Source: a virus. Taken from it: a stretch of 64,000 nt of DNA. Below, piece by piece: positions 1,707 to 57,267 of the stretch. The stretch lies in the IMG/VR virus record IMGVR_UViG_3300009506_000006, positions 1-64,000 of that record. One strand, given 5' to 3'. The notes beneath the pieces are model-generated. The model did no database searches. It was not told where the DNA came from and saw nothing but the letters and a program-made list of their open reading frames with translations. Positions within the stretch are counted from its first letter, which is position 1. Every line of letters begins with the position of its first letter. The position numbers and the translations under genes are program-made.

Positions 1707-2894
1707 TTAGTAATTTCTCCGTGCAATGACTGCCAGATTCGGATCCAAGCATTTTACGCCGTAGAGAACATCAAGTGTTACCAGGACCTTGGCATTTGCG
1801 TCATTGTACGCAACGCGACTGCGCAGAGAAAGTCCAGTACGCGGATCGGTGACGGTAGCAATACGGGCTCCAACTCCATTTCCAGTTTCGGGTAGCGGCG
1901 CCATAGCTACGGCGAACGCGTTCCGATGGAACATAACGTTGTAGTAATATTTGTCCGCATAGTTCGTTGCCGAAATGGTTTCGAACGTCACCACAGTCCC
2001 ACTGTTTGCAGCCGCAACCAGACCCGGATAGCAGGTTACAGTACCTGCGCCACCGGACAGTGTCACGTCAGCTGCCACACTGTAGCGCTGGGTATTGCCG
2101 GTAATTACGAAACTATCACCGGCTTTCAGGGTCTCAGTGCCGGTCAAGCCGGAGACTGAGAGGCTGGTTGCACGGATTGCCGCGGTTGCGGCCAGGGCAC
2201 CAGCAACGTCATTGGTAGCTGAGATGACCGTACCGGAGGTGTGGCTGGACAGTGTTTGCTGTACGAAATGCTCAACTCCGAAACGGGTGCCAAGATGTCC
2301 GCGCAGCGCGGTAGCTTGCTGCTCAGGCGTCTGACCGACTGTGCTTGCACCGTGGAAGATGCCGAGATTCATAAAAGCAGCTTCCAGGGTTGAATCGATT
2401 GCGAAATGCACCATATCGGTGTCGACCATTCCGCCGGCATTGTCGCGCAATACCTTGCGGGTGTTGATGATATCGGCAGCTGTCAGGCTGGAAGCCAGAT
2501 CGTAACTCCACGGCACCTTGTTGTACAGGGTGGTCAGTGAAGTTTCGATATAATTGGCCAGCGCGTACATTGCCGGGCTGATGTGCTCCTGAATGATTTT
2601 TTCGCTGGTGTAAGCCAGCTCCTGGTCGGTCAAACCGAATTTGACTTCGCGCCAGGTATTCAGATCGATGGTGATGTAGTTTGGATTGAGATCGGCCGCG
2701 GTGCCAGTACCGCCTGCCTGGGTTGACAGAGTGCCAGGCTTGCGGATTTGGATCGTGGAGCCAAGCTCGAAGCTCTTGCGCTCATCGTCGTATCCGTGAT
2801 ACACGCGTCGGGCCATGCCCAAAGCATTCTCGAGGACCGTCAGTCCTTCCTGGGCATAGAATACGGGATCATACGGAGTTGTGTAGTTTGACAT
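1707..2894 (-). CDS. major capsid protein, P22 coat-like
   Basis: 395 aa. The N-terminal part (LTVLENALGMARRVYHGY, SFELGSTIQIRKPGT, then ITIDLNTWREVKFGLTDQEL and SPAMYALANYIETSL) follows the P22 gp5-type coat family. Residues about 235-305 form a Gly/Thr/Ser-rich beta segment (SVSGLTGTETLKAGDSF) resembling the inserted domain of such coats. The protein assembles the T=7-type procapsid with the scaffold encoded just upstream (12-bp gap). It is on the minus strand, while terminase and portal are on the plus strand, which is unusual for head genes. Confidence 0.85.
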   Translation of the reverse strand: MSNYTTPYDPVFYAQEGLTVLENALGMARRVYHGYDDERKSFELGSTIQIRKPGTLSTQAGGTGTAADLNPNYITIDLNTWREVKFGLTDQELAYTSEKIIQEHISPAMYALANYIETSLTTLYNKVPWSYDLASSLTAADIINTRKVLRDNAGGMVDTDMVHFAIDSTLEAAFMNLGIFHGASTVGQTPEQQATALRGHLGTRFGVEHFVQQTLSSHTSGTVISATNDVAGALAATAAIRATSLSVSGLTGTETLKAGDSFVITGNTQRYSVAADVTLSGGAGTVTCYPGLVAAANSGTVVTFETISATNYADKYYYNVMFHRNAFAVAMAPLPETGNGVGARIATVTDPRTGLSLRSRVAYNDANAKVLVTLDVLYGVKCLDPNLAVIARRNY

Positions 2895-2905
2895 GCTTTG
2901 TTACC

Positions 2906-3739
2906 TCACTTTTCAGCAATTTGTATTTTGACGCCTTTTTCTATGGCAAGCTTTCTGGCTGCCCGATATTTTTCGGGATCACGGGCATCTTTTTGGCTTA
3001 GCACGATGAATTGGGCGTCTTTGTCGTAGTTCAAATTGCCGGACCCTCCGGGGCCTCCCGGTGAATTACGCAAAATCCAATCTTTTTGCGGGTACTTGTC
3101 GATCAAAAAACCGATGGCTTCCTCGAACTCGGCTGGCTCGCCTATGCGTGCCGGATCTCTGGACAGAATTTTCTCGCCACTGTAATAGCCGACAAGTTTC
3201 AGGTCACCGCTTTTGTCCTGTTCTGGTTTGAAGTATTTGCCGAACACTTCTTGGGCCATATCCCATGGGAGCGTCGTTTTGGGATTTTCGCCTGCAAAGT
3301 ATTTGCTTTTGGCAAAGTGACTTCCGATGATCAAATTGCGGATTGTAGAATCTTTGGTTTTGAGTTGCCCCTCGAATTCTTTGACCTTTTTTTCGTGCTC
3401 CTGGCGCGTTTTGTTCAGTTCGGTGTCGAATGTTTCCGTGTATTGCTTCTTGAGTTTTTCGACTTCACCGGCATCAATGAGCTTTTTGGCGTCCAGGTTG
3501 GCTACCGTTTCCAGGGCTTTCTTGGCCACTTCCGGATCTTCAATGCCTTCGAACAGCTTGAATTTCTCCTGGAATTTCTCCAGATCTTTGCGCCGGGACG
3601 CGCTTTCGTTGTTGAGTTCGTGGATTTTTTTCATGGCCCCGGGTGCATCAAAGGCCAGTTCATTGCCGTCTTCCATCTCGTAGACGGGCTTTCCATCGGT
3701 AAGTACGACATGACCATCTTGGTCCAGCTTCAGTTTCAT
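2906..3739 (-). CDS. scaffolding-like coiled-coil protein upstream of coat (DUF6651-like)
   Basis: 277 aa from the ATG at 3739, chosen because GGAAGGAG lies 9-16 nt upstream; longer in-frame extension runs into the leader hairpin. Residues about 40-150 are heptad-like and highly charged (MKKIHELNNESASRRKDLEK), typical of scaffold or capsid-assembly proteins. A PGGPGGSG linker near residue 235 precedes a basic C-terminal tail, the position of coat-binding tails in P22-like scaffolds. Order scaffold-coat supports the role; the DUF assignment is from memory of the family. Confidence 0.75.
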   Translation of the reverse strand: MKLKLDQDGHVVLTDGKPVYEMEDGNELAFDAPGAMKKIHELNNESASRRKDLEKFQEKFKLFEGIEDPEVAKKALETVANLDAKKLIDAGEVEKLKKQYTETFDTELNKTRQEHEKKVKEFEGQLKTKDSTIRNLIIGSHFAKSKYFAGENPKTTLPWDMAQEVFGKYFKPEQDKSGDLKLVGYYSGEKILSRDPARIGEPAEFEEAIGFLIDKYPQKDWILRNSPGGPGGSGNLNYDKDAQFIVLSQKDARDPEKYRAARKLAIEKGVKIQIAEK

Positions 3740-3772
3740 GCTTCTCGCTCCTTCCTTTGGCATCTCGCCGAC

Positions 3773-3816
3773 AAAAAAATGGGGAACCCAGCAGTGTGCG
3801 GCTGCTGTAATTCCCC
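3773..3816 (-). terminator. leader terminator between divergent promoter and scaffold gene
   Basis: GGGGAA (3781-3786) pairs with TTCCCC (3811-3816), and CAGCAG (3789-3794) with CTGCTG (3802-3807). On the minus strand it is followed by ATTTTTTT. It sits inside the leader of the scaffold-coat transcript, downstream of the promoter at 3901-3935, so it would attenuate the head operon unless bypassed. Confidence 0.75.
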
Positions 3817-3900
3817 GTAAATCTTGATGATTCACACCGGCCTGTGCGAATCAAGACCACGTTATTAACACGATTGTTAACAATATGGTCGACAAAATTA

Positions 3901-3935
3901 TTGACAATTTTCTTACTATCGGTAAGAATTGTCAA
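3901..3935. promoter_or_regulatory. divergent promoter/operator between scaffold and terS
   Basis: A 35-bp near-palindrome: TTGACAAT and ATTGTCAA at its ends enclose TTCTTACTATCGGTAAGAA (3910-3928). On the plus strand TTGACA-17-AAGAAT faces terS; on the minus strand TTGACA (3935-3930) faces the scaffold gene with a weaker GAAAAT -10. One bound repressor could shut off both arms of the head gene cluster. Confidence 0.75.
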
Positions 3936-3994
3936 GTAAAAAATGCAGGCTAGCGAATTTTTTAATCTGGAACTTTAAGAAGCGAGGTGCTCTG

Positions 3995-4531
3995 ATGGCT
4001 GATGTTCTGGGTAGAAAATCCCCAAAATCAAAGAAAGGAGCGTGGAAATATAAGAAGATCGAGATGCTGAAACGGCGTATTCAAATTATGGATTTGAAAA
4101 AACAGGAGTACACTAAAACGCAAATTGCGCAGATGCTTGGTATCGATGAAAGCCAAGTGACTCGTGACATCCAAGCCATAGACCAAGAGGTCTCTGAAGA
4201 ATATCGTTCTAGGATTACTGATTTGTCTGGAATCATAGCCGCGGAATACCAGAAGATCTGTTTTTTGGAAAATTTGTGTGCGCAAAGATTAGAGCGGACT
4301 AAAAACAATCCAGAACGCGGATCGCGTTTTGTCGAAGAATGGCGTAAATTAATGGAACGCAAGGCCAAGCTGCTTGGATTAGACAGCGAAACAAAACACA
4401 GATACACCATTGACGAAAATCCGGCTACCAAAGAACAGCGCGATGCTGCTGTACAAGCTGCGCTGAAGGCAGCTCAGATTAGCAAGGAGCTCAAGCTTGA
4501 CGAAGACAGCGAAACAGTCGGCAGCGCTTGA
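3995..4531 (+). CDS. terS: terminase small subunit
   Basis: 178 aa from the ATG at 3995, behind GCGAGGTG; the TTG at 3929 lies in the operator and is rejected. Residues about 45-75 form a helix-turn-helix (EYTKTQIAQMLGIDESQVTR) followed by a charged helical region, the layout of small terminases that recognise the packaging site. Immediately upstream of and overlapping terL by 35 bp. Assignment rests on the HTH and on gene order. Confidence 0.8.
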   Translation: MADVLGRKSPKSKKGAWKYKKIEMLKRRIQIMDLKKQEYTKTQIAQMLGIDESQVTRDIQAIDQEVSEEYRSRITDLSGIIAAEYQKICFLENLCAQRLERTKNNPERGSRFVEEWRKLMERKAKLLGLDSETKHRYTIDENPATKEQRDAAVQAALKAAQISKELKLDEDSETVGSA

Positions 4532-5978
4532 TTTATCTCCTGAACAGCTGGCTTACAGCCAATTGTTGGCCTATGCTGCTTATATGTATCCGCAGTATAA
4601 AGTGGGACATCATCACGCGCTGATTGCCAAACATTTAGAAAGAGTAGAACGCGGTGAGCTCACTAGGCTTATGGTGTTTTTGCCACCAAGATCAGGCAAG
4701 TCGTTTCTGTGTTCAGAATTTTTTCCAGCCTGGTACTTAGGACGCAATCCGACCAAGCAAGTTATTGCCGCCACATACAGCCACGAAAAAGCCGGGGACT
4801 CGGGCCGCAAAGTTCGCAACTATATGGTCGATCCAATCTTTGCAGCAATTTTTCCGGAATGCCAAGTATCCTCTGATCAAAAAAGTGCCAATCATTTGAG
4901 CACTTTGCAGGGCGGAAACCTGTATTCAGTTGGTGTACGCGGTGCACAGGCCGGCCGCGGCGCACATCTGTTTCTGGTGGATGATCCGCTTAAGGATCGC
5001 AAAGAAGCTGACAGTGAAGTTGAACAGAAGCGTCTGCGTGATTGGTATCGTGCTGTAGCGTATACGCGATTAATGCCTGGCCAATCCGCTGTAATCGTTA
5101 TTATGACGAGATGGCATTACAATGATCTAGCCGGCTGGCTGCTCTCCGAACATAAACATGAAAATTGGACTGTGTTGTCTTTACCGGCAATCTCTGAAGA
5201 TGACGATCTGCTTGGCCGTAAACCTGGAGATCCACTTTGGCCTGAGGCTTATCCGCTTGGCAACCTGTATAAGATTAAAAAGACTGTTGGAACCCGGGAA
5301 TGGAACGCATTATATCAACAGCGTCCGCTGCCGGAAGAAGGCGGCTTGGTTAACCTTGAATGGTTTATGCGCTACTCGATGTTTGACTGGGGCAAATGGC
5401 AGGCTGCAGTACGTGTCGACGGACGCAAGTTCGACCGGGCTAACTCGCATTTTCCAATCAAGAAAATTGTGTGCTCGTGGGATACAGCTTTCAAAGAAAA
5501 GCAAATCAACGACCCGTCTGCCTGCACAGTTTGGGGCGTGACTGATAAGGATTATTATTTGCTGTACATGATCAACGAACGCTTGGACTTTCCTAAACTC
5601 AAGCGCCGTGTGGTTGAAGTCCAGGAACTCAATTGTCGTAAACTGGGATTTAAGAATTACGAAGTCATCGTGCTGATTGAAGACAAGGGCTCCGGCACCA
5701 GCTTGATTCAGGAGCTCAAACGTGAAACCAATATTCCGGTGATTGGCTGTACGCCAGATGCTAATAAGATCTTTCGCATGGAGTCAGTCAGTGCGTTGAT
5801 CGAAGCCGGCCGGGTGTGGATTCCAGACCGTGCAGTTTGGCTGACGGATTTTGAGACCCAGATGGCGGAGTTTCCCTATGGCAAGCATGATGATATCGTG
5901 GACAGTGTAAGCCAATTTTTGCGTTGGATAAATAAACCTAAATTTAAACGTAGTCAAGGAACTCTTTTTTACAAATAA
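4497..5978 (+). CDS. terL: terminase large subunit (ATPase and nuclease)
   Basis: 493 aa from a TTG start, supported by AAGGAG 7 nt upstream and by translational coupling to terS. ATPase domain: FLPPRSGKS Walker A near residue 60, LFLVDDPLKD Walker B near residue 160, MTRWHYNDLAG coupling segment. RNase H-like nuclease: CSWDTAFKEKQINDPS (first Asp), VLIEDKGSGTSLIQEL (second acidic patch), HDDIVDSVSQFLRW (third Asp). It packages DNA into the procapsid through the portal. Confidence 0.95.
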   Translation: MTKTAKQSAALDLSPEQLAYSQLLAYAAYMYPQYKVGHHHALIAKHLERVERGELTRLMVFLPPRSGKSFLCSEFFPAWYLGRNPTKQVIAATYSHEKAGDSGRKVRNYMVDPIFAAIFPECQVSSDQKSANHLSTLQGGNLYSVGVRGAQAGRGAHLFLVDDPLKDRKEADSEVEQKRLRDWYRAVAYTRLMPGQSAVIVIMTRWHYNDLAGWLLSEHKHENWTVLSLPAISEDDDLLGRKPGDPLWPEAYPLGNLYKIKKTVGTREWNALYQQRPLPEEGGLVNLEWFMRYSMFDWGKWQAAVRVDGRKFDRANSHFPIKKIVCSWDTAFKEKQINDPSACTVWGVTDKDYYLLYMINERLDFPKLKRRVVEVQELNCRKLGFKNYEVIVLIEDKGSGTSLIQELKRETNIPVIGCTPDANKIFRMESVSALIEAGRVWIPDRAVWLTDFETQMAEFPYGKHDDIVDSVSQFLRWINKPKFKRSQGTLFYK

Positions 5979-5980
5979 AA

Positions 5981-5999
5981 ATCTTACTGAGGGTAAGAA
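5981..5999. promoter_or_regulatory. operator-type palindrome overlapping the portal ribosome-binding site
   Basis: ATCTTACTGAGGGTAAGAA matches the dispersed operator. It occupies the whole 24-bp gap between terL and portal, and its central GAGGG is also the portal Shine-Dalgarno. No good -35 is present, so here it may act as a roadblock rather than a promoter operator. Confidence 0.6.
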
Positions 6000-6002
6000 C
6001 CG

Positions 6003-7424
6003 ATGGACAAGCAAGAATTACAGCGAACGCATCCGGATTATGACGCAAACATCGATGATTGGAACTTGTACAGTCTGGCTTATACCGGTGGACGCAAATT
6101 TATTGAATACGCTCTCGATCGTATTGAACGCGAAACCCAGGATAATTACGAAGATCGTATCAAGGAAGGTGTATGCCTGAATTTTTCTCGCGCTATTGTT
6201 GATTTGTTTAATTTCTATTTAACGGAAAAGGCCGCTATACGGGAACTGCATACACTTGAAAGTGATGCTCAGTGGCGGATGTTTCTGCGTGACTGCGATT
6301 TCCGTGGTACAGATTTTGACACATTTATGATCGAAGCCAGTCGCTTGAATTCGGTTAACGGTTCACTTGGTTTGCTGGTGACTAAACCAGAAGTTGGTGC
6401 CCAGAATGTCAGCGAAGAAATTAGTGCTAACGTATATCCATATTGCTGTGCGTATACTCTTCAAAACATTCTCGATTGGGAATTCGACAAGGATCCTGCT
6501 AGCGGCCGTCCACGCCTGACTCGCATCAAACTCCGCGAAGACGACGGACGTTACTTGATCTGGTACCTGGACCGATGGGAGCTATGGTCGGTTGGTGCCA
6601 AAGATAAAGTTCATTTAGATGACGGTGGCGAAAATCCGCTAGACGAAATTCCTTTCATCTGGTTTCCAAGCATGCGCAGCCTGGTAGCGCCGTATCTTGG
6701 CCAGTCTGATATTACCGAAATTTCAAGGATTCAGCTTAGCTTAACACGCAATATTTCGTGTGGGGAAGAAATCATCAAATGGAGCGGTTTTCCGATGATG
6801 CGAAAACCCATGCTCATGGAAGGCGAGGAAGAAAAGGAAGACGTGATTGGTAACACGGCAGTGCAGGAATATAATCCGGAATTCGGTGGAGACGCTAAAC
6901 CTGATTGGATGCCGACCGAAGTGCTGGAGCCTATTGAAGCGATCTTAAATTGGATCGATCGCAAAATCGATGAAACCTATCGTATTGCTCATTTATCCGG
7001 TGTGCACGGTCAGCGCAAATCTAATAACGAAGTGTCTAGCGGATTAGCGCTGCGCTACGAATTTCAGCAGCTGTATTCGGTCTTGAGCAAAAAAGCCGAG
7101 TCGCTGGTTGAGACCGAATACAGCATTATTCGGTTGTGGCTGAAATGGCAAAAGAAACTTGACTTGTTCGAACAAATCAAAATCAAGCGCTCCAAGTTGT
7201 TCTCCGTAGACGACTTGGCTATCAGTCTCGAGAACCAGATTAAGACTATGACCAATGTTACCAGCCGGACATTCAAGATTTTGGCTCAGAAACATATGGT
7301 TAAACAAATGCTGCCGGATATTAATGAATCTGATATGCAGACTATAGAAGCTGAATTGCAAGCTCCAACAACACAGAAAAAAGAGGATAATATCGAAGAA
7401 GCTGGTGATTCATTTTCTAAGTAG
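6003..7424 (+). CDS. portal protein
   Basis: 473 aa, third gene of the plus-strand packaging operon. It has the length and composition of SPP1/HK97-type portals: an N-terminal wing (FIEYALDRIERETQDNYEDR, NFSRAIVDLFNFYL), a central stem region (EISRIQLSLTRNISCGEEII), and a Gln/Asn-rich helical C-terminus (SGLALRYEFQQLYSVLSKKA). It forms the dodecameric DNA gate to which terminase docks. Its last 15 bp overlap the end of a convergent minus-strand gene. Confidence 0.88.
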   Translation: MDKQELQRTHPDYDANIDDWNLYSLAYTGGRKFIEYALDRIERETQDNYEDRIKEGVCLNFSRAIVDLFNFYLTEKAAIRELHTLESDAQWRMFLRDCDFRGTDFDTFMIEASRLNSVNGSLGLLVTKPEVGAQNVSEEISANVYPYCCAYTLQNILDWEFDKDPASGRPRLTRIKLREDDGRYLIWYLDRWELWSVGAKDKVHLDDGGENPLDEIPFIWFPSMRSLVAPYLGQSDITEISRIQLSLTRNISCGEEIIKWSGFPMMRKPMLMEGEEEKEDVIGNTAVQEYNPEFGGDAKPDWMPTEVLEPIEAILNWIDRKIDETYRIAHLSGVHGQRKSNNEVSSGLALRYEFQQLYSVLSKKAESLVETEYSIIRLWLKWQKKLDLFEQIKIKRSKLFSVDDLAISLENQIKTMTNVTSRTFKILAQKHMVKQMLPDINESDMQTIEAELQAPTTQKKEDNIEEAGDSFSK

Positions 7425-7679
7425 TATTTCTTTAATTTTAAGCACAGCTAAATATTCAAAGAAATTTTTTAGTACGTCGTGGCAGTTATAACGTTCAACC
7501 CATATTTGCGCAACTCGTTTGGAAAATGGTGTTGCTTCAACTGGATTCCTTGTCAACGAGAAATAAATAGTTTCTCCATTTGCTTCGAAAACGTAATGCT
7601 TAATTCTTCGAAAATATCCGTAATCTTCTGAGTCAGTTTTGTTTTCCCACTTAATTATATAAAGTTTCTGCGATTTCAT
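7410..7679 (-). CDS. KERLL-family small protein, copy 1
   Basis: 89 aa. Starts MKSQKLYIIKW and ends LAVLKIKEILLRK, matching the shared start (K-x-W/Y-I-V-K) and end (YxKERLLGK) of five other genes to 9740. Not recognised outside this array. Its 3' end overlaps the convergent portal gene by 15 bp, with no terminator visible between. Confidence 0.65.
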   Translation of the reverse strand: MKSQKLYIIKWENKTDSEDYGYFRRIKHYVFEANGETIYFSLTRNPVEATPFSKRVAQIWVERYNCHDVLKNFFEYLAVLKIKEILLRK

Positions 7680-7680
7680 T

Positions 7681-7962
7681 TCATATCAACTGGTGCGGTA
7701 AAAAGCAGCAATAGTGCCCCCATTCGTTGATAGCCAGACAGTAGTTATCTGTCGTCATAGCTATTGCTAAACATGGCATATTGACGATCGATCCGTCAGA
7801 TTGCTTAATAAATAATCCGCATCGACTGTTTTCGATTGCCGAAAATATCACAGTAAACTCCGGATTCTGGTGTGCCAGTTTCAGAAAACGCTCAATTTTT
7901 TTCAGCTGGAATTTTGGTATGCAGAGCAACTCGATAACAATCTTTCTTTGGCATATAAACAA
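7681..7962 (-). CDS. hypothetical protein
   Basis: 93 aa open frame with plausible composition (FSAIENSRCGLFIKQSDGSI, then NEWGHYCCFLPHQLI). Its first 20 codons overlap the end of the next KERLL-family gene, so the true start is probably internal and cannot be fixed. Not a member of the array by sequence. Confidence 0.5.
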   Translation of the reverse strand: MFICQRKIVIELLCIPKFQLKKIERFLKLAHQNPEFTVIFSAIENSRCGLFIKQSDGSIVNMPCLAIAMTTDNYCLAINEWGHYCCFLPHQLI

Positions 7963-10957: not shown

Positions 10958-11032
10958 TGGAGCGGGCGCCTGGACTTGAACCAGGATTATCATGGCGGGC
11001 AGCCACGGACTCTGCCATTGAGCTACGCCCGC
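10958..11032 (-). tRNA. tRNA-Gly(GCC)
   Basis: Acceptor GCGGGCG pairs with CGCCCGC, discriminator T and an encoded CCA follow. The T arm is CCTGG-TTCAAGT-CCAGG. Anticodon stem CGTGG/CCATG holds the loop CTGCCCG, so the anticodon is GCC. Position 37 is C rather than the usual A. It lies inside the minus-strand operon and is presumably processed from that transcript. Confidence 0.92.
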
Positions 11033-24888: not shown

Positions 24889-24917
24889 ATCTTACTTTCG
24901 GTGAATTGACTTGTCAA
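24889..24917 (-). promoter_or_regulatory. sigma70-type promoter with operator
   Basis: TTGACA (24917-24912), exactly 17 bp, TAAGAT (24894-24889). ATCTTACTTTCGGTGAA over the -10 keeps one perfect operator half. Drives the leftward DUF2958-DUF1937 operon. Confidence 0.8.
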
Positions 24918-25069: not shown

Positions 25070-25149
25070 ATAAGTATCAAAAGCCTAAAAATTTCAAAAT
25101 TTTCTAGACATGTCTAAATGACAAGTCTTAAATATATTTAGCCTACATA

Positions 25150-25417
25150 CAGGCACCTGCGTATTTCCGGGCGGGCGGGACCTTGCCTCGTCCCGGACTT
25201 GGCATGTGATCATGGCAGTACCTACAGGCACCTGCGTATTTCCGGGCGGGCGGGACCTTGCCTCGTCCCGGGCTTGGCATGTGATCATGGCAGTACCTAC
25301 AGGCACCTGCGTATTTCCGGGCGGGCGGGACCTTGCCTCGTCCCGGACTTGGCATGTGACCATGGCAGTACCTACAGGCACCTGCGTATTTCCGGGCGGG
25401 CAGGACCTTTTTCCAGA
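25150..25417. repeat. 75-bp tandem direct repeat, three and a half copies
   Basis: The unit beginning AGGCACCTGCGTATTTCCGG starts at 25151, 25226, 25301 and 25376: exactly 75 bp apart, nearly identical, GC-rich. Each unit contains CGGGCGGGCGGGACC and a GTGATCATGGCAGTACC segment. Open frames across it simply reflect the multiple-of-three period. The fourth copy diverges after about 42 bp. Confidence 0.9.
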
Positions 25418-25798
25418 CGGACAGGACCCGCGGCTGAGCTTCCAGGGCGAGCGAAGCGAGCCCCAGGCCGCAGCCATCTTGAGTGGCAACAGGCCTCCGC
25501 ATGTTGGCTGAGTGCGTACGGCAGTTGACGACGTTCTATAGATTAGGCTGTTCAGAGCGGGCCATTGGGTGGGGGGGGGATAGGGGCAGCCGAAGCTTTC
25601 GAGAACCATGGCAGGTCAGGGGGAAGGGGGCGGGTTTTGAGGCGCTAATAAAGCCTGACAAATTTGTTTAGACAGATTGGTAACGATTATTTATGTCAAA
25701 GTCGAGCGCCTCAAAAGGGGCCTCTCTTCCCCCTTCCCCCTACCACGGCATTATTATTTATTGTTTGTCATTATAACCAAGGTGGTATGCCCAGACAT
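25418..25798. other. non-coding segment with a very long interrupted inverted repeat
   Basis: GGGGGAAGGGGG (25619-25630) pairs with 25729-25740, and TTTTGAGGCGCT (25635-25646) pairs with 25705-25716: 24 perfect pairs enclosing about 58 nt. A GGGT-G9-ATA tract lies at 25567-25582. No credible gene. See findings. Confidence 0.75.
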
Positions 25799-25835
25799 AA
25801 AAAAAGCCGAGACCCTGTGTAGGGATCCCGGCTTT
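25799..25835 (-). terminator. terminator after the Csx16-like gene
   Basis: AAAGCCG (25803-25809) pairs with CGGCTTT (25829-25835), with CCCT/AGGG inside, followed on the minus strand by a run of seven T. Confidence 0.85.
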
Positions 25836-25887
25836 GTGTTATACACCGGCCGCCATCCATCCCGCCCTGGCCGGTGAGGTTCTATAA

Positions 25888-26649
25888 CTATAATTTGCGT
25901 ATCTTATACGTTACGGGAGCAGCAGCGTACTTCCGTACTTGCTCCAGTGACAACTCCACTCCCCGAAGTTCCTTGGGCAATTCGGGCAGCGGGACTTCCG
26001 TGAAGCTCTCGCACAGACAGGAAAGCGAATGCGGCAGGACACCGCACACGCGCTTACCTGTGACGTCGATACCGCTGGCGTGCTCGATAACCTGCGTAGT
26101 TTCATTGGCGAGCCCGGTTTCCCGAAGGTATTCAACTAGCCCGGGATGCCGGGTAACGACCAATTCGACTGCAGGCCGTTGACTGGTTATGGCGGCTTTG
26201 GCAGCTGCCTGGGCCTTTACTATCACCCGGGCTGCTTCCGCCTCGGAAAGCAACTGCTTTAGCATCGAGAGTGAGGTTTCGGTTTCGATGCTGAAAGACG
26301 ATTGATTTCCGAAGAACGTTCCGAAAGCCAGATACCGCGGCGAGCCATTGATCAGGTAGACCGGGCGCTTACCGTTGGTACCCCGCCAAAGTGTGTAAGT
26401 AGGACTGTCCGGGTTAGTGCCCTCTGGATACTGAGTTAACGTCCGACCATGGAGAGCAGCCACATCGACGAGCGCCCTGACTGGGGCGTTGTGGTTGATC
26501 TGGCGATTGGCGAGCGCCTTGATGCAGGCCTCGCCGATAACTGTGAAAAAGGCGTCCGAAGCGTCCTGCGCTCCGGGGTCTTTGTAGTTAATTCCGATAT
26601 TATGCAGGACACCGGACGCTGCGGATGCAGTCGGAAGGTACAGCTTCAT
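25888..26649 (-). CDS. protein with C-terminal Csx16-like (ring nuclease) domain
   Basis: 253 aa. Residues about 158-253 match the order of the CRISPR-associated Csx16 (VVA1548) family: VVTRHPGLVEYLRETGL, a degenerate IEHASGIDVTGKRVCGVLP, then PELPKELRGVELSLEQV and YAAAPVTYKI. Csx16 has been reported to degrade cyclic tetra-adenylate, the messenger of type III CRISPR. The N-terminal 155 residues are unrecognised (SPTYTLWRGTNGKRPVYLIN; Ala-rich helix near 140-155). On a phage this domain could act as an anti-CRISPR; that is inference. Monocistronic: own terminator on each side. Confidence 0.65.
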   Translation of the reverse strand: MKLYLPTASAASGVLHNIGINYKDPGAQDASDAFFTVIGEACIKALANRQINHNAPVRALVDVAALHGRTLTQYPEGTNPDSPTYTLWRGTNGKRPVYLINGSPRYLAFGTFFGNQSSFSIETETSLSMLKQLLSEAEAARVIVKAQAAAKAAITSQRPAVELVVTRHPGLVEYLRETGLANETTQVIEHASGIDVTGKRVCGVLPHSLSCLCESFTEVPLPELPKELRGVELSLEQVRKYAAAPVTYKIRKL

Positions 26650-26832: not shown

Positions 26833-28530
26833 TTAATAATGACTCGTCACCCAAGCCTGATACTCAGGCTCTTCGGGTGGTGGTGGCAGTGGTGGCAGTG
26901 GTGGTACTTGCGGCTGCTGCTTGGCTGCTTTATCCCGGGCGGTGAACCAGGCTTCCCGGATCAGCTCGAACTCGTTATCCGAAGGCCGATCTTTGAGAGG
27001 CTGGCCTTTGAGATCGCAACCAGTTTTCCTGGCATTGATGATCCAGGCGGCTGCGAACTTGATCTTGGACGCTGGGAGATTTCGCAGCCGTGATATTAGC
27101 GCACGGGCAGTACCGGGTTTATCGACGACTACCGACTGCGTAAGCCGGAACTCTCTATCGGGATACTGAGCTGCCTGCTGCCGGTTGGTCGTTAGCCAGA
27201 CCGTGTTAGCACGCAGCTGCGGCTTGTGCATGGCGGCTTGCGCTGCGTGGATCAGCGCGATTTTGCACCGGCGATATTCCCAGCGCCAGAAATTGAGCTG
27301 TTTGAGTGACTGGCGCTCATGTTCACTCCAGCCTCCAGCTGGTGTGCGCACCCAGGAGCGGGTAAGCTTCTGAGCAAAGACGAGCTGGCCGAATTTCTTC
27401 AGCCGGACCAAGCTGTCCTCACTACGCAGCTGGCGGATTACCTCCTGGAACCTGCGCGTGCAGGATTTCAGATGAGCGTCCTCTGCCTTGTTATCGTCCT
27501 GGTTGATCCGGGCGTAGCGGAACAGGTCCGGGGTACCGAAACCACGGTCAAGGACGAACTTGCCGTCTTCAGTGTGGAACCCATACGACTCGAACACCGC
27601 CGCAACATCGTGCTCCAACATTGCGGGTACCGGATCGGCCGCTAGCATCTGCAACTGCCGTTTCGTCAGACGCTGCCAAGCCTGCTCGAGGTCTTCGATG
27701 TCGTTAATAACGATGTCGTCCCAGGATTCCGGGTCGACGTCACCGTCTGAAGCCTCGGTTTCGATTTCGTCCTCGGCGAACCACGGATTTTCTTCGCCGA
27801 ACGGTCGCAGATCCCGGATTAACGAGAATGGTTTCTCGTTCACGTGAACCTCATCACTGACGAGTTCGCCAGCAAGCCCTTCGAAATACGGAAGGGCTTT
27901 GTCGACCCCGCGTTTCTGCACCCAGCGGATAAATTCAGGATGCAGTCTTCCGGAATCGTCAATGATGCCGAAGAAGTCAATGAGATCTTCGGCTTGGCCC
28001 AACGTGCAGCTGCATTGGCGGGCGACGACTTCAACCCGCTGCAGCTTCGAAATCTGCGGTACGTTCGTGCCCGGACGCTGCACGTTGCCGCTGCCGTCCC
28101 AGCACTGTTCGAAGATCTGCCGATCGAGCTGACTGAGATCCGAACAATGCTCGGACATGCCCCAGAAGCCTTCACCGAAGGCTTGAGCTGCGGGAACCTC
28201 GCGAGCGTTTAACCGGGCTGCTTCGTCGCGAGCCTGGGTCCAGAATCTGAATCCAGCCGACTCGACTGACCAGCGGCCGCAGGATGGGCATGTCGCAACC
28301 ACGAAGTGCTGATCGCGAAAGATATGCGGCGCATCGAACTGCAAATCCATGCCGCATTTAATACAGACTTCCGGCGCGCAATTTTCTTCCAGCATGCGCC
28401 GGTTATCGTGGTTAAACACGTGGCCGTCCGCGGTGTAGTCCGGTGGCTCAGCTCTGTCGAATTCAGGAGCTTGGTAACAGTTAGGCGGAGCGGCTTGACA
28501 AAGCTTCAAAGATTGTCTATAGGAATTCAT
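26833..28530 (-). CDS. large zinc-finger protein of unknown function
   Basis: 565 aa. Residues about 55-85 hold VCIKCGMDLQF and ATCPSCGRWSVE, a treble-clef-like zinc site. The middle is acidic (ETEASDGDVDPESWDD near 255), the C-terminal third is basic and aromatic (SLKQLNFWRWEYRRCKIAL), and the end is a poly-Pro segment (QVPPLPPLPPPPEEPEY). I do not recognise the family. Zinc finger plus basic helical region would suit nucleic-acid binding. GC-rich codon use, like its neighbours. Confidence 0.75.
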   Translation of the reverse strand: MNSYRQSLKLCQAAPPNCYQAPEFDRAEPPDYTADGHVFNHDNRRMLEENCAPEVCIKCGMDLQFDAPHIFRDQHFVVATCPSCGRWSVESAGFRFWTQARDEAARLNAREVPAAQAFGEGFWGMSEHCSDLSQLDRQIFEQCWDGSGNVQRPGTNVPQISKLQRVEVVARQCSCTLGQAEDLIDFFGIIDDSGRLHPEFIRWVQKRGVDKALPYFEGLAGELVSDEVHVNEKPFSLIRDLRPFGEENPWFAEDEIETEASDGDVDPESWDDIVINDIEDLEQAWQRLTKRQLQMLAADPVPAMLEHDVAAVFESYGFHTEDGKFVLDRGFGTPDLFRYARINQDDNKAEDAHLKSCTRRFQEVIRQLRSEDSLVRLKKFGQLVFAQKLTRSWVRTPAGGWSEHERQSLKQLNFWRWEYRRCKIALIHAAQAAMHKPQLRANTVWLTTNRQQAAQYPDREFRLTQSVVVDKPGTARALISRLRNLPASKIKFAAAWIINARKTGCDLKGQPLKDRPSDNEFELIREAWFTARDKAAKQQPQVPPLPPLPPPPEEPEYQAWVTSHY

Positions 28531-28627: not shown

Positions 28628-28780
28628 TTAATCTTCGTCTTCGTCTTTTTCAGAGTTGATGATGAAGTCGATATCGACGTCAGTAATGCGGGCGACGTCA
28701 AAGCCGACTGCTGCGAAGTGATCGGCTTCCACTTCATCGACCACAAAGTTGCCGGAATCAGTGAATACGATATAGTCCAT
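28628..28780 (-). CDS. small acidic protein
   Basis: 50 aa: MDYIVFTDSGNFVVDEVEA start, NSEKDEDED end. The start has GGAGGTGATACC upstream. First of three very short genes with near-identical leaders. A strong GCCGGAG hairpin (28571-28601) separates it from the 565-aa gene. Confidence 0.65.
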   Translation of the reverse strand: MDYIVFTDSGNFVVDEVEADHFAAVGFDVARITDVDIDFIINSEKDEDED

Positions 28781-28806
28781 GGTATCACCTCCTGTTTAGA
28801 ATATAG

Positions 28807-28920
28807 TTAGATGTTTAGAACCATGATCCAGCCAACGAGGCCGAACATGGCCGACAATACAATCATGAACGCTGCGATTTCCCACCATCGCAGCTCGCAA
28901 GAGTGATGACGATGTCTCAT
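28807..28920 (-). CDS. tiny membrane protein
   Basis: 37 aa: MRHRHHSCELRWW, then EIAAFMIVLSAMFGLVGWIM as one transmembrane span. Leader AAAGGAGGTGATATC. Confidence 0.65.
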   Translation of the reverse strand: MRHRHHSCELRWWEIAAFMIVLSAMFGLVGWIMVLNI

Positions 28921-28945
28921 GATATCACCTCCTTTCAAGAATTGT

Positions 28946-29038
28946 TTATGGCAGCATCACAATGCCGCCGATAACCGCCGCCATGACAGTGATGACGGCG
29001 AGATAAAACCCCAACCAGTCAATCCAATTAAACTGCAT
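28946..29038 (-). CDS. tiny membrane protein
   Basis: 30 aa: MQFNWIDWLGFYLAVITVMA then AVIGGIVMLP, a single transmembrane span. Leader GAAAGGAGGTGATCACA is the exact complement of the 16S rRNA 3' tail, the strongest possible Shine-Dalgarno. Confidence 0.65.
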   Translation of the reverse strand: MQFNWIDWLGFYLAVITVMAAVIGGIVMLP

Positions 29039-29116
29039 TGTGATCACCTCCTTTCGCAAATTATTTATGAATGAATACCAACACACAAAGTTTGCCGATC
29101 CCCTCTGCAACTTTCT

Positions 29117-29664
29117 GCACGGCCACTACGGGCAAGGTTAGGAATGATTGCCGGCTATGGCCGTGCCTTGCGAAGCTCGGAAACTCAATAGTGGCCGGTC
29201 AGTAGGATTTTGAATTTAGGTGAACGCCAGCGTCGCAGACATCAGATACGCCGCCAACTCTTTTATTTGAGCGGCGTACCTTCGTTCACCGGCCTCAAAA
29301 AACACACCTTCTCACGCCAGCAATCTCTGATTGCTTAAAGTCTTTTTGGCTAGTGTTAGAACGATTTGGGTGAACGCGGCGGCCTTTTAGCGCGATGTTA
29401 ACGTGTCACAAAGTCTAAGTTTTCGTGGCCGGTTGTGAATGAAATGACATTAAAACCAGAGATGTGTTTTTTGAGGTGAATTCAAAATCACGGCTAGTGT
29501 GGGGGCGAGCTTTGTGTGTGTGTAGCTGAGTCAGGCGTCGCCAACGTAGAAGATTGATGATTGTCAGGAGTTCGACGCCGACAAGGCGGCTTTCCTTGCT
29601 CAGGCTGCAAACGCTTTTTTTTTAAAGCAGCCTGAGTGCCGCCGACTCGAAGCATCCATGATGC
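29117..29664. ncRNA. candidate large structured RNA, about 550 nt
   Basis: No gene fits 29039-29892. The segment holds a nested set of perfect helices: 29206-29216 with 29479-29489 (11 bp), 29219-29226 with 29283-29290, 29247-29254 with 29271-29278, 29293-29306 with 29463-29476 (14 bp), 29319-29325 with 29329-29335, 29534-29540 with 29573-29579, 29585-29590 with 29638-29643, and 29599-29608 with 29627-29636 (10 bp). The first, second and fourth form a tight three-way junction. Strand is not settled; G-U extensions lean towards plus. Confidence 0.65.
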
Positions 29665-29847
29665 AGATCCTCAACGCGCATGTTTTTAAAAAAAGATGTT
29701 TCTGGTTTTTTGATGCCGAGTTTGCTTTTTGAAATGTTGACCTGAAAGGTGCGGAATCGGGAGCTAAAGGATGAGTTACGATTACATACCGGATCGAGTC
29801 TGTTGTGTGGCTGATCCGCTATTCGGGGTCCCCTCTGGGGCAAACAT

Positions 29848-29890
29848 AGAAAAAGCCTGGAGAACCATTGAGCTTGGTTCCGCAGGCTTT
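29848..29890 (-). terminator. terminator after the 54-aa zinc protein gene
   Basis: Minus strand: AAAGCCTG(C)GGAACCA, short loop, TGGTTCTCCAGGCTTT, then TTTCTA. Ends the leftward operon from about 31.3 kb. Confidence 0.85.
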
Positions 29891-29892
29891 GG

Positions 29893-30057
29893 TTACTCGG
29901 AATTGCTTGTGTAGAACTCTTCCCAGTATTCGGCTTCGCCCGGTTTACAGGTCGAGTGATGCTGGATGGCTTCCCTGGTTGTAGCATATGCCCCGCAGTT
30001 GTTGCATTGCCACATGTCTGCATCGTCGATATAGGTGAACTCGCTGTCTTTATACAT
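29893..30057 (-). CDS. small C2H2-like zinc protein
   Basis: 54 aa: MWQCNNCGAYATTREAIQHH then STC gives CxxC-x12-HHxxC, a single zinc finger. AAAGGAGC upstream. Twelve bp downstream of the metallopeptidase-like gene. Confidence 0.7.
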   Translation of the reverse strand: MYKDSEFTYIDDADMWQCNNCGAYATTREAIQHHSTCKPGEAEYWEEFYTSNSE

Positions 30058-31701: not shown

Positions 31702-32145
31702 TTAGAACGGGATGTCGTCTTCCGTCATGTTCGGAGCGGGTGCGTCACCGACTTGATTCTGCATTTCCGGCGGGATCTCCGGCAACGGCGCACGGTTGCC
31801 GTTGGGTTGACCCATGGTTAGCCTCGGGAAGGCCGTCATTACGATCTCGGTCGTATAACGGGTGACCTTATTCTTGTCTTCCCACGACCGTGTTCTCAGC
31901 TCGCCTTCCATCTTGATCCGGGCGCCTTTCTTGTAATCCTCGTGCGCCCCGATCATTTCGGCCACTTTACGGAATGCCACGACGTTGTGCCATTCCGTGC
32001 GCTTTTGGTCGTCACCGTTGGCGTCACGCCAGAATTTACTGGTGGCGAGCCGCAGGCGACAGACCGCGGAGCCGTCCTGAAAATAATGCAGTTCAGGATC
32101 AGCCCCCAGGTTGCCTTCAAGAAACACGAAATTCTCTCTAATCAT
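31702..32145 (-). CDS. ssb: single-stranded DNA-binding protein
   Basis: 147 aa from ATG 32145 (GGAGG 8 nt upstream). OB-fold signatures FVFLEGNLGADPELHYF, LRLATSKFWRD, RTEWHNVVAFRKVAEM, then KKGARIKMEGELRTRSWEDK; acidic tail ends TEDDIPF like E. coli SSB, the partner-protein docking tip. It acts in phage DNA replication and recombination. Confidence 0.92.
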   Translation of the reverse strand: MIRENFVFLEGNLGADPELHYFQDGSAVCRLRLATSKFWRDANGDDQKRTEWHNVVAFRKVAEMIGAHEDYKKGARIKMEGELRTRSWEDKNKVTRYTTEIVMTAFPRLTMGQPNGNRAPLPEIPPEMQNQVGDAPAPNMTEDDIPF

Positions 32146-57096: not shown

Positions 57097-57174
57097 TGGT
57101 GATCCTGGTGGGAATCGAACCCACGTTACCGGGATGAAAGCCCGACCTCCTTTCCAATTTGGATGCACAGGATC
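57097..57174 (-). tRNA. tRNA-Glu(TTC)
   Basis: Acceptor GATCCTG/CAGGATC, discriminator A, CCA encoded. Anticodon loop CTTTCAT, anticodon TTC. T arm GTGGG-TTCGATT-CCCAC. The D stem is short (three to four pairs). Confidence 0.88.
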
Positions 57175-57183
57175 ATAAGACGT

Positions 57184-57267
57184 TGGTGGACGGGGGAGGA
57201 ATTCGCACCTCCACAGCAAGCGCGGGGGATTTACAGTCCCTTGGGTTCACTCGTACCCAGCCCGTCC
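57184..57267 (-). tRNA. tRNA-Tyr(GTA)
   Basis: Acceptor GGACGGG/CCCGTCC, discriminator A, CCA encoded. Anticodon loop CTGTAAA, long variable arm (GCGCTTGC) as in bacterial tRNA-Tyr. Its 5' part is shared with the end of the upstream zinc-protein gene, whose stop codon lies in the anticodon loop. Confidence 0.92.

Follow-up and report, generated by a model that had tools for sequence, protein, structure and literature searches.

ROOL and GOLLD are the best points of comparison for the element that we describe here. ROOL (RF03087), from phages and prophages, is a large, multibranched non-coding RNA that forms a homo-oligomeric nanocage. GOLLD (RF02032) is a large phage RNA of unknown function whose expression rises during phage lysis. 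A published account describes both as RNA-only cages with no known function, and places both often near tRNA islands, which are frequent but not obligatory for ROOL (PMC12286853). Many GOLLD RNAs are longer than 800 nt, with a 3' region that is conserved (PMC12286853). Structured 5' leaders and attenuators are another possible comparison.

Our element lies at 29117-29664 of a 64,000-nucleotide window (bases 1-64000 of a 107,865-bp IMG/VR virus record). The record comes from a tailed phage, probably a temperate one, as judged from its genes for terminase, portal, major head protein, and integrase. The original prediction was that the element recalls ROOL and GOLLD, and an Rfam scan was proposed. 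That scan gave no match to ROOL, GOLLD, HEARO, or OLE. Across the whole window, only tRNAs were found at the gathering score; with E up to 10, there was nothing relevant in 28700-29950. (HEARO and OLE were covered by these whole-Rfam scans, at both thresholds.) A direct search of the record for GOLLD was empty. So was the direct search for ROOL, but none of 14 control genomes rang either, which makes this result weak on its own.

The element resembles ROOL in being large and multibranched and in its size (548 nt, as compared to 574 positions in the ROOL model), but it has no sequence or structure match to ROOL and no tRNA island nearby, as ROOL often has (PMC12286853). Similarly, it is large and phage-borne like GOLLD, but it lacks a GOLLD match, a tRNA island, and the length above 800 nt and conserved 3' region of many GOLLD RNAs (same source). 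The only tRNA matches in the window are at 10961, 35241, and 57100; the nearest is 5.6 kb from the element and is single. (By eye, the sequence at 57181-57265 resembles a tRNA with the anticodon GTA and adjoins the tRNA match at 57100-57174; it is in neither tRNA tool's calls.) Like a structured leader or attenuator, the element has a terminator on one side and a co-directional gene on the other, but it is larger, and we identified no promoter or expression platform. In a literature search that was not exhaustive, no title or abstract opening among those listed pointed to the element.

Predicted fold and its excess over chance

All of the helices that were originally named are present in the sequence. 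At the center is a three-way junction (29206-29489) formed by three perfect helices: 29206-29216/29479-29489 (11 bp), 29219-29226/29283-29290 (8 bp), and 29293-29306/29463-29476 (14 bp), or 33 Watson-Crick pairs. The junction was said to have almost no unpaired bases, and this holds on the plus strand if G-U pairs are counted. The junction helices have pairing probabilities of at least 0.97 on either strand (with a context of about 680 nt). In the plus-strand reading, a basal helix (29170-29179/29506-29515) leads into the junction and closes a domain of 346 nt (29170-29515). This helix has a core of 7 Watson-Crick pairs, plus one more Watson-Crick pair and two G-U pairs on the plus strand. The first branch contains a hairpin at 29247-29278 with a perfect 8-bp stem (11 pairs on the minus strand, including one G-U), and the second branch carries the hairpin AGCAATC/GATTGCT at 29319-29335.

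Outside the closed domain is a 5' hairpin (29117-29166; named as on the plus strand), with a perfect 9-bp stem (GCACGGCCA/TGGCCGTGC) and an inner 5-bp stem. On the other side are the hairpin GGCGTCG/CGACGCC (29534-29579), a two-part hairpin of GGCGGC and CTCAGGCTGC with an 18-nt loop that includes T9 (29585-29643), and a small hairpin GCATC/GATGC at the right end (29652-29664). None of these features is assigned to a strand. A switch had been suggested between 29120-29128/29189-29197 and 29117-29124/29159-29166. Both pairings are indeed perfect (9 bp for 29120-29128/29189-29197 and 9 bp for 29117-29125/29158-29166), but they are unbalanced: the hairpin 29117-29125/29158-29166 has a probability of 0.99 on the plus strand. 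Separately, ATTTRGGTGAACGC occurs twice, 150 nt apart (29214-29227 and 29364-29377), and either copy can pair with 29283-29290, which gives an alternative 8-bp helix.

We compared this pairing to chance. The region 29045-29846 contains 13 perfect helices of at least 8 bp, while dinucleotide shuffles average 4.7 and none of 2,000 reached 13. A helix of at least 14 bp arose in just two of those 2,000 shuffles. A three-way junction with helices of at least 8 bp and at most 6 unpaired bases was not seen in 3,000 shuffles; even when helices of at least 6 bp were allowed, the best junction in 3,000 shuffles had 23 pairs. Within the record itself, among 536 windows of 802 nt, 33 bp was found only in the three overlapping windows that contain the junction, and the next best was 21. 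The fold z of 29117-29664 is -5.2 on the plus strand and -4.7 on the minus strand (0 of 100 shuffles were equally stable), and the plus-strand value for the 548-nt element ranks second among 215 windows of the record. Windows of 250 nt have a weak fold signal, so the structure signal rests on long-range pairs. The claim of a large multibranched structure thus stands up on four counts: fold z, rank within the record, number of helices, and rarity of the junction.

Nor does the region look coding: in 29045-29845, stop-to-stop frames reach 73 codons at most. Overall, the capacity of these roughly 550 non-coding bases to form an elaborate branched structure is real and goes far beyond what chance would give.

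Strand, neighboring genes, and relatives

It had been argued that extending the first (11-bp) junction helix adds U-G and A-U pairs on the plus strand only. This turned out to be selective. We tallied the first flanking pairs of 14 core helices: 4 extend by G-U on the plus strand only, 5 on the minus strand only, and 17 on neither. Plus-only pairs extend the 11-bp helix inward, the 14-bp helix outward, and the basal helix 29170-29179/29506-29515. Minus-only pairs extend the 14-bp helix and the 5' hairpin inward, 29431-29434/29454-29457 outward, and 29247-29254/29271-29278 in both directions. The predicted fold does have more pairs on the plus strand (188 vs. 163 on the minus strand) and more G-U pairs (24 vs. 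11). The plus strand is also richer in G + T, and shuffles of the plus strand likewise fold better. Because the z values are alike on both strands and the G-U extensions split 4 to 5, the plus-strand claim is not supported.

Signals for transcription did not settle the strand. Our promoter search of both strands found none that was convincing, and the best minus-strand site (29412-29439) falls within the structure. In a search with the phage promoter motif, the plus-strand sites all scored 6.8 or less, and no site settled the strand. A terminator scan found no clear closing element on either the plus or the minus strand.

All of the likely genes around the element are on the minus strand. The SSB gene (31702-32154, minus) is about 2 kb away. 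Between it and a 54-aa gene is a 205-aa gene (minus), which is a neighbor of the element. The 54-aa gene (29893-30057, minus) is upstream of the element and is zinc-finger-like by sub-threshold Pfam matches only. It is followed by a probable intrinsic terminator (29847-29890, minus), whose hairpin (29852-29890) has 16-nt arms that are 88% complementary, with TTTTT next on the minus strand. (This candidate is known from the complementarity of its arms and the T run, and is absent from the simple terminator scan's list.) On the other side of the element are two tiny genes, of 30 aa (28946-29038, minus, with a strong ribosome-binding site) and 37 aa (28807-28920, minus), whose products appear from their sequences to be membrane proteins. 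Beyond these are genes for a small acidic protein (50 aa; 28628-28780, minus) and a 565-aa protein (26833-28530, minus). The original prediction put the gap between the terminator and the tiny membrane genes at 850 bp; the gap exists, and its length is close to that, about 810 bp (from the hairpin at 29852-29890 to the start at 29038). Farther along, 25888-26649 encodes a 253-aa phage protein with a C-terminal Cas_VVA1548 domain (PF09652, E = 1.7e-14).

A distantly related record of 119,981 bp, G012, has neighboring genes in common with this one. Its SSB is 34% identical to the SSB here, and a 474-aa protein is related to the 565-aa protein (27% identity over 158 residues; the two have a FGEGFxGM...QLxRxIxExC region in common). 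Between these two genes, G012 has tiny and small acidic genes that, by eye, are much like those here. Its tiny membrane gene begins less than 100 bp after the SSB terminator hairpin, and from the sequence, only that hairpin lies between them. Since the tiny membrane gene of G012 lacks such an element, genes of this kind do not depend on it as a leader. The arrangement in G012 weakly favors an independent element.

We did not find a homolog of the element, eight scans of IMG/VR included. BLASTN against phages and plasmids gave nothing, or at most two chance matches (25-27 bases). IMG/VR contained no match to an exact pattern of 20 bases. A three-part pattern built on the repeated GGTGAAC motif matched 51 stretches in IMG/VR; none was element-like by nhmmer (E up to 1), and BLASTN on these stretches gave just two matches, both attributable to chance (23 and 18 bases). 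Searches via the 565-aa protein, a helicase, the 205-aa neighbor, and the terminase gave distant phages without the element and one close sister fragment (L002), which has 74-80% DNA identity over 2246-7778 and stops short of the element. Terminase searches found 451 relatives, of which 80 were kept for searching. Our covariance model R1 (a single-sequence model, as its second row, from L001, is identical DNA) found no homolog in the 38 of these 80 loci that we searched with it (35 whole records plus L071, L076, and L100), and BLASTN with the element's DNA found none in the 20 of the same 80 records that it covered. A terminase scan of genome contigs gave 12 loci from mixed hosts, the best of them 54% identical, and R1 found no homolog in any of the 12 genomes behind these loci.

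Other elements in these records

A second strong non-coding inverted-repeat element is at 25606-25746. It has the arms GGGGGAAGGGGG/CCCCCTTCCCCC and TTTTGAGGCGCT/AGCGCCTCAAAA and an A+T-rich core of about 55 nt, and it follows a terminator (minus, 25806-25838) and immediately precedes the gene at 25094-25609. The 548-nt window from 25617 has the best fold z among the 215 windows of the record. At 77546-77610 in G000 (13546-13610 in L150) is a compact GC-rich hairpin or Y shape, closed by GAGCCGGGTGC/GCACCCGGCTC, in a 539-nt gap that lacks ORFs. Rfam searches of these two elements gave nothing beyond chance-level matches.

We also found eight CTTAC-N5-GTAAG palindromes, as compared to 0.05 in shuffles (at 1680, 3912, 5983, 54993, and 55841 in the window and at 64100, 81021, and 90916 in G000). 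Several of them overlap TTGACA-N17-TAAGAT promoters (1678-1706 and 64098-64126, with a variant at 24889-24917), and they are probable phage repressor operators. Finally, a 78-kb phage record (G010; L163-L166) has fourteen ORF-free gaps of at least 350 nt, which is unusual relative to the other records. A single recoded stop gave no clear explanation for these gaps.

Competing readings of the element

Our preferred reading, to which we give a probability of roughly 0.45, is that the element is a lineage-specific and most likely free-standing structured RNA of about 350-550 nt with a closed domain at 29170-29515. Such a phage-borne non-coding RNA would fold alone, into the 5' hairpin, the long closed domain built on a near-perfect three-way junction, and the 3' hairpins. 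It would most likely act on its own, for instance as a scaffold or a sponge in the course of infection, and not as the leader of the tiny membrane genes. In favor of this reading, we count the excess of helices and the junction, the fold z, the high pairing probabilities at the junction, the lack of a long frame, a gap that is bounded by a terminator and tiny genes, and the tiny gene of G012, which does without such a leader. Against it, there was no homolog in any collection that we searched, and hence no alignment in which covariation could show, and there is no clear closing terminator on either strand. The split G-U evidence and the lack of a promoter argue against any RNA reading and were weighed in our confidence; such a split is what one would expect in the absence of selection on an RNA. 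The element is a solid orphan candidate rather than a demonstrated RNA, and we infer its transcription, its free-standing nature, and its role.

Two rivals are to be taken seriously. One is a minus-strand 5' leader, long and structured, that would act in cis (by attenuation or on stability) on the tiny membrane genes and the genes beyond. Every neighboring gene is on that strand, the upstream gene ends at a terminator with the next start about 810 bp on, and we found no terminator between the structure and that gene. The minus-strand fold z of -4.7 and the several helix extensions that are G-U on the minus strand only also fit. But our search turned up no suitably placed promoter, a leader of this size would be a large one, and in G012 a similar tiny gene does without one, so we consider a leader rather doubtful. 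The other serious rival, which we nonetheless consider unlikely, is that the element works as DNA, as a dyad at a replication origin or a recombination or partition site, or that it consists of decaying inverted repeats. Such a reading would account for the lack of strand preference between G-U and A-C mismatches, and both the second inverted-repeat element at 25606-25746 and the SSB gene 2 kb away are in keeping with it. However, iterons are absent, no DnaA box lies closer than 8 kb, GC skew does not turn at 29 kb, and there are no other signs of a replication origin at this place; moreover, nested side-by-side helices in one junction are atypical of dyad binding sites.

Might the element be a neutral spacer, whose pairing is coincidence together with ordinary hairpins? 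Short windows have only weak signals, and A+T-rich runs make up two of the junction's three helices. Nevertheless, shuffling never reproduced this junction or this number of helices, and no other window of the record has such a junction, which makes a spacer quite improbable. That the element is a diverged relative of ROOL, of GOLLD, or of some other large RNA family already known is disfavored and, in our view, very improbable. The size (relative to the ROOL model), the phage setting, and the multibranched fold are similar, but even at E up to 10 Rfam gave no match, the direct searches were empty, and no tRNA island is near.

To return to the free-standing structured RNA, it is conceivable, if doubtful, that this is the first one seen of a new class of ornate, large RNAs from phages. 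Such a class would be unrelated to ROOL and GOLLD in sequence and layout, would have a near-perfect three-way junction, and would belong to a small and under-sampled lineage of temperate phages of about 100 kb. At present, we have a single orphan sequence, backed by strong statistics and precise helix coordinates. If it does represent an independent class in another phage lineage, it would tell us whether phages turn to big folded RNAs as a recurrent strategy.
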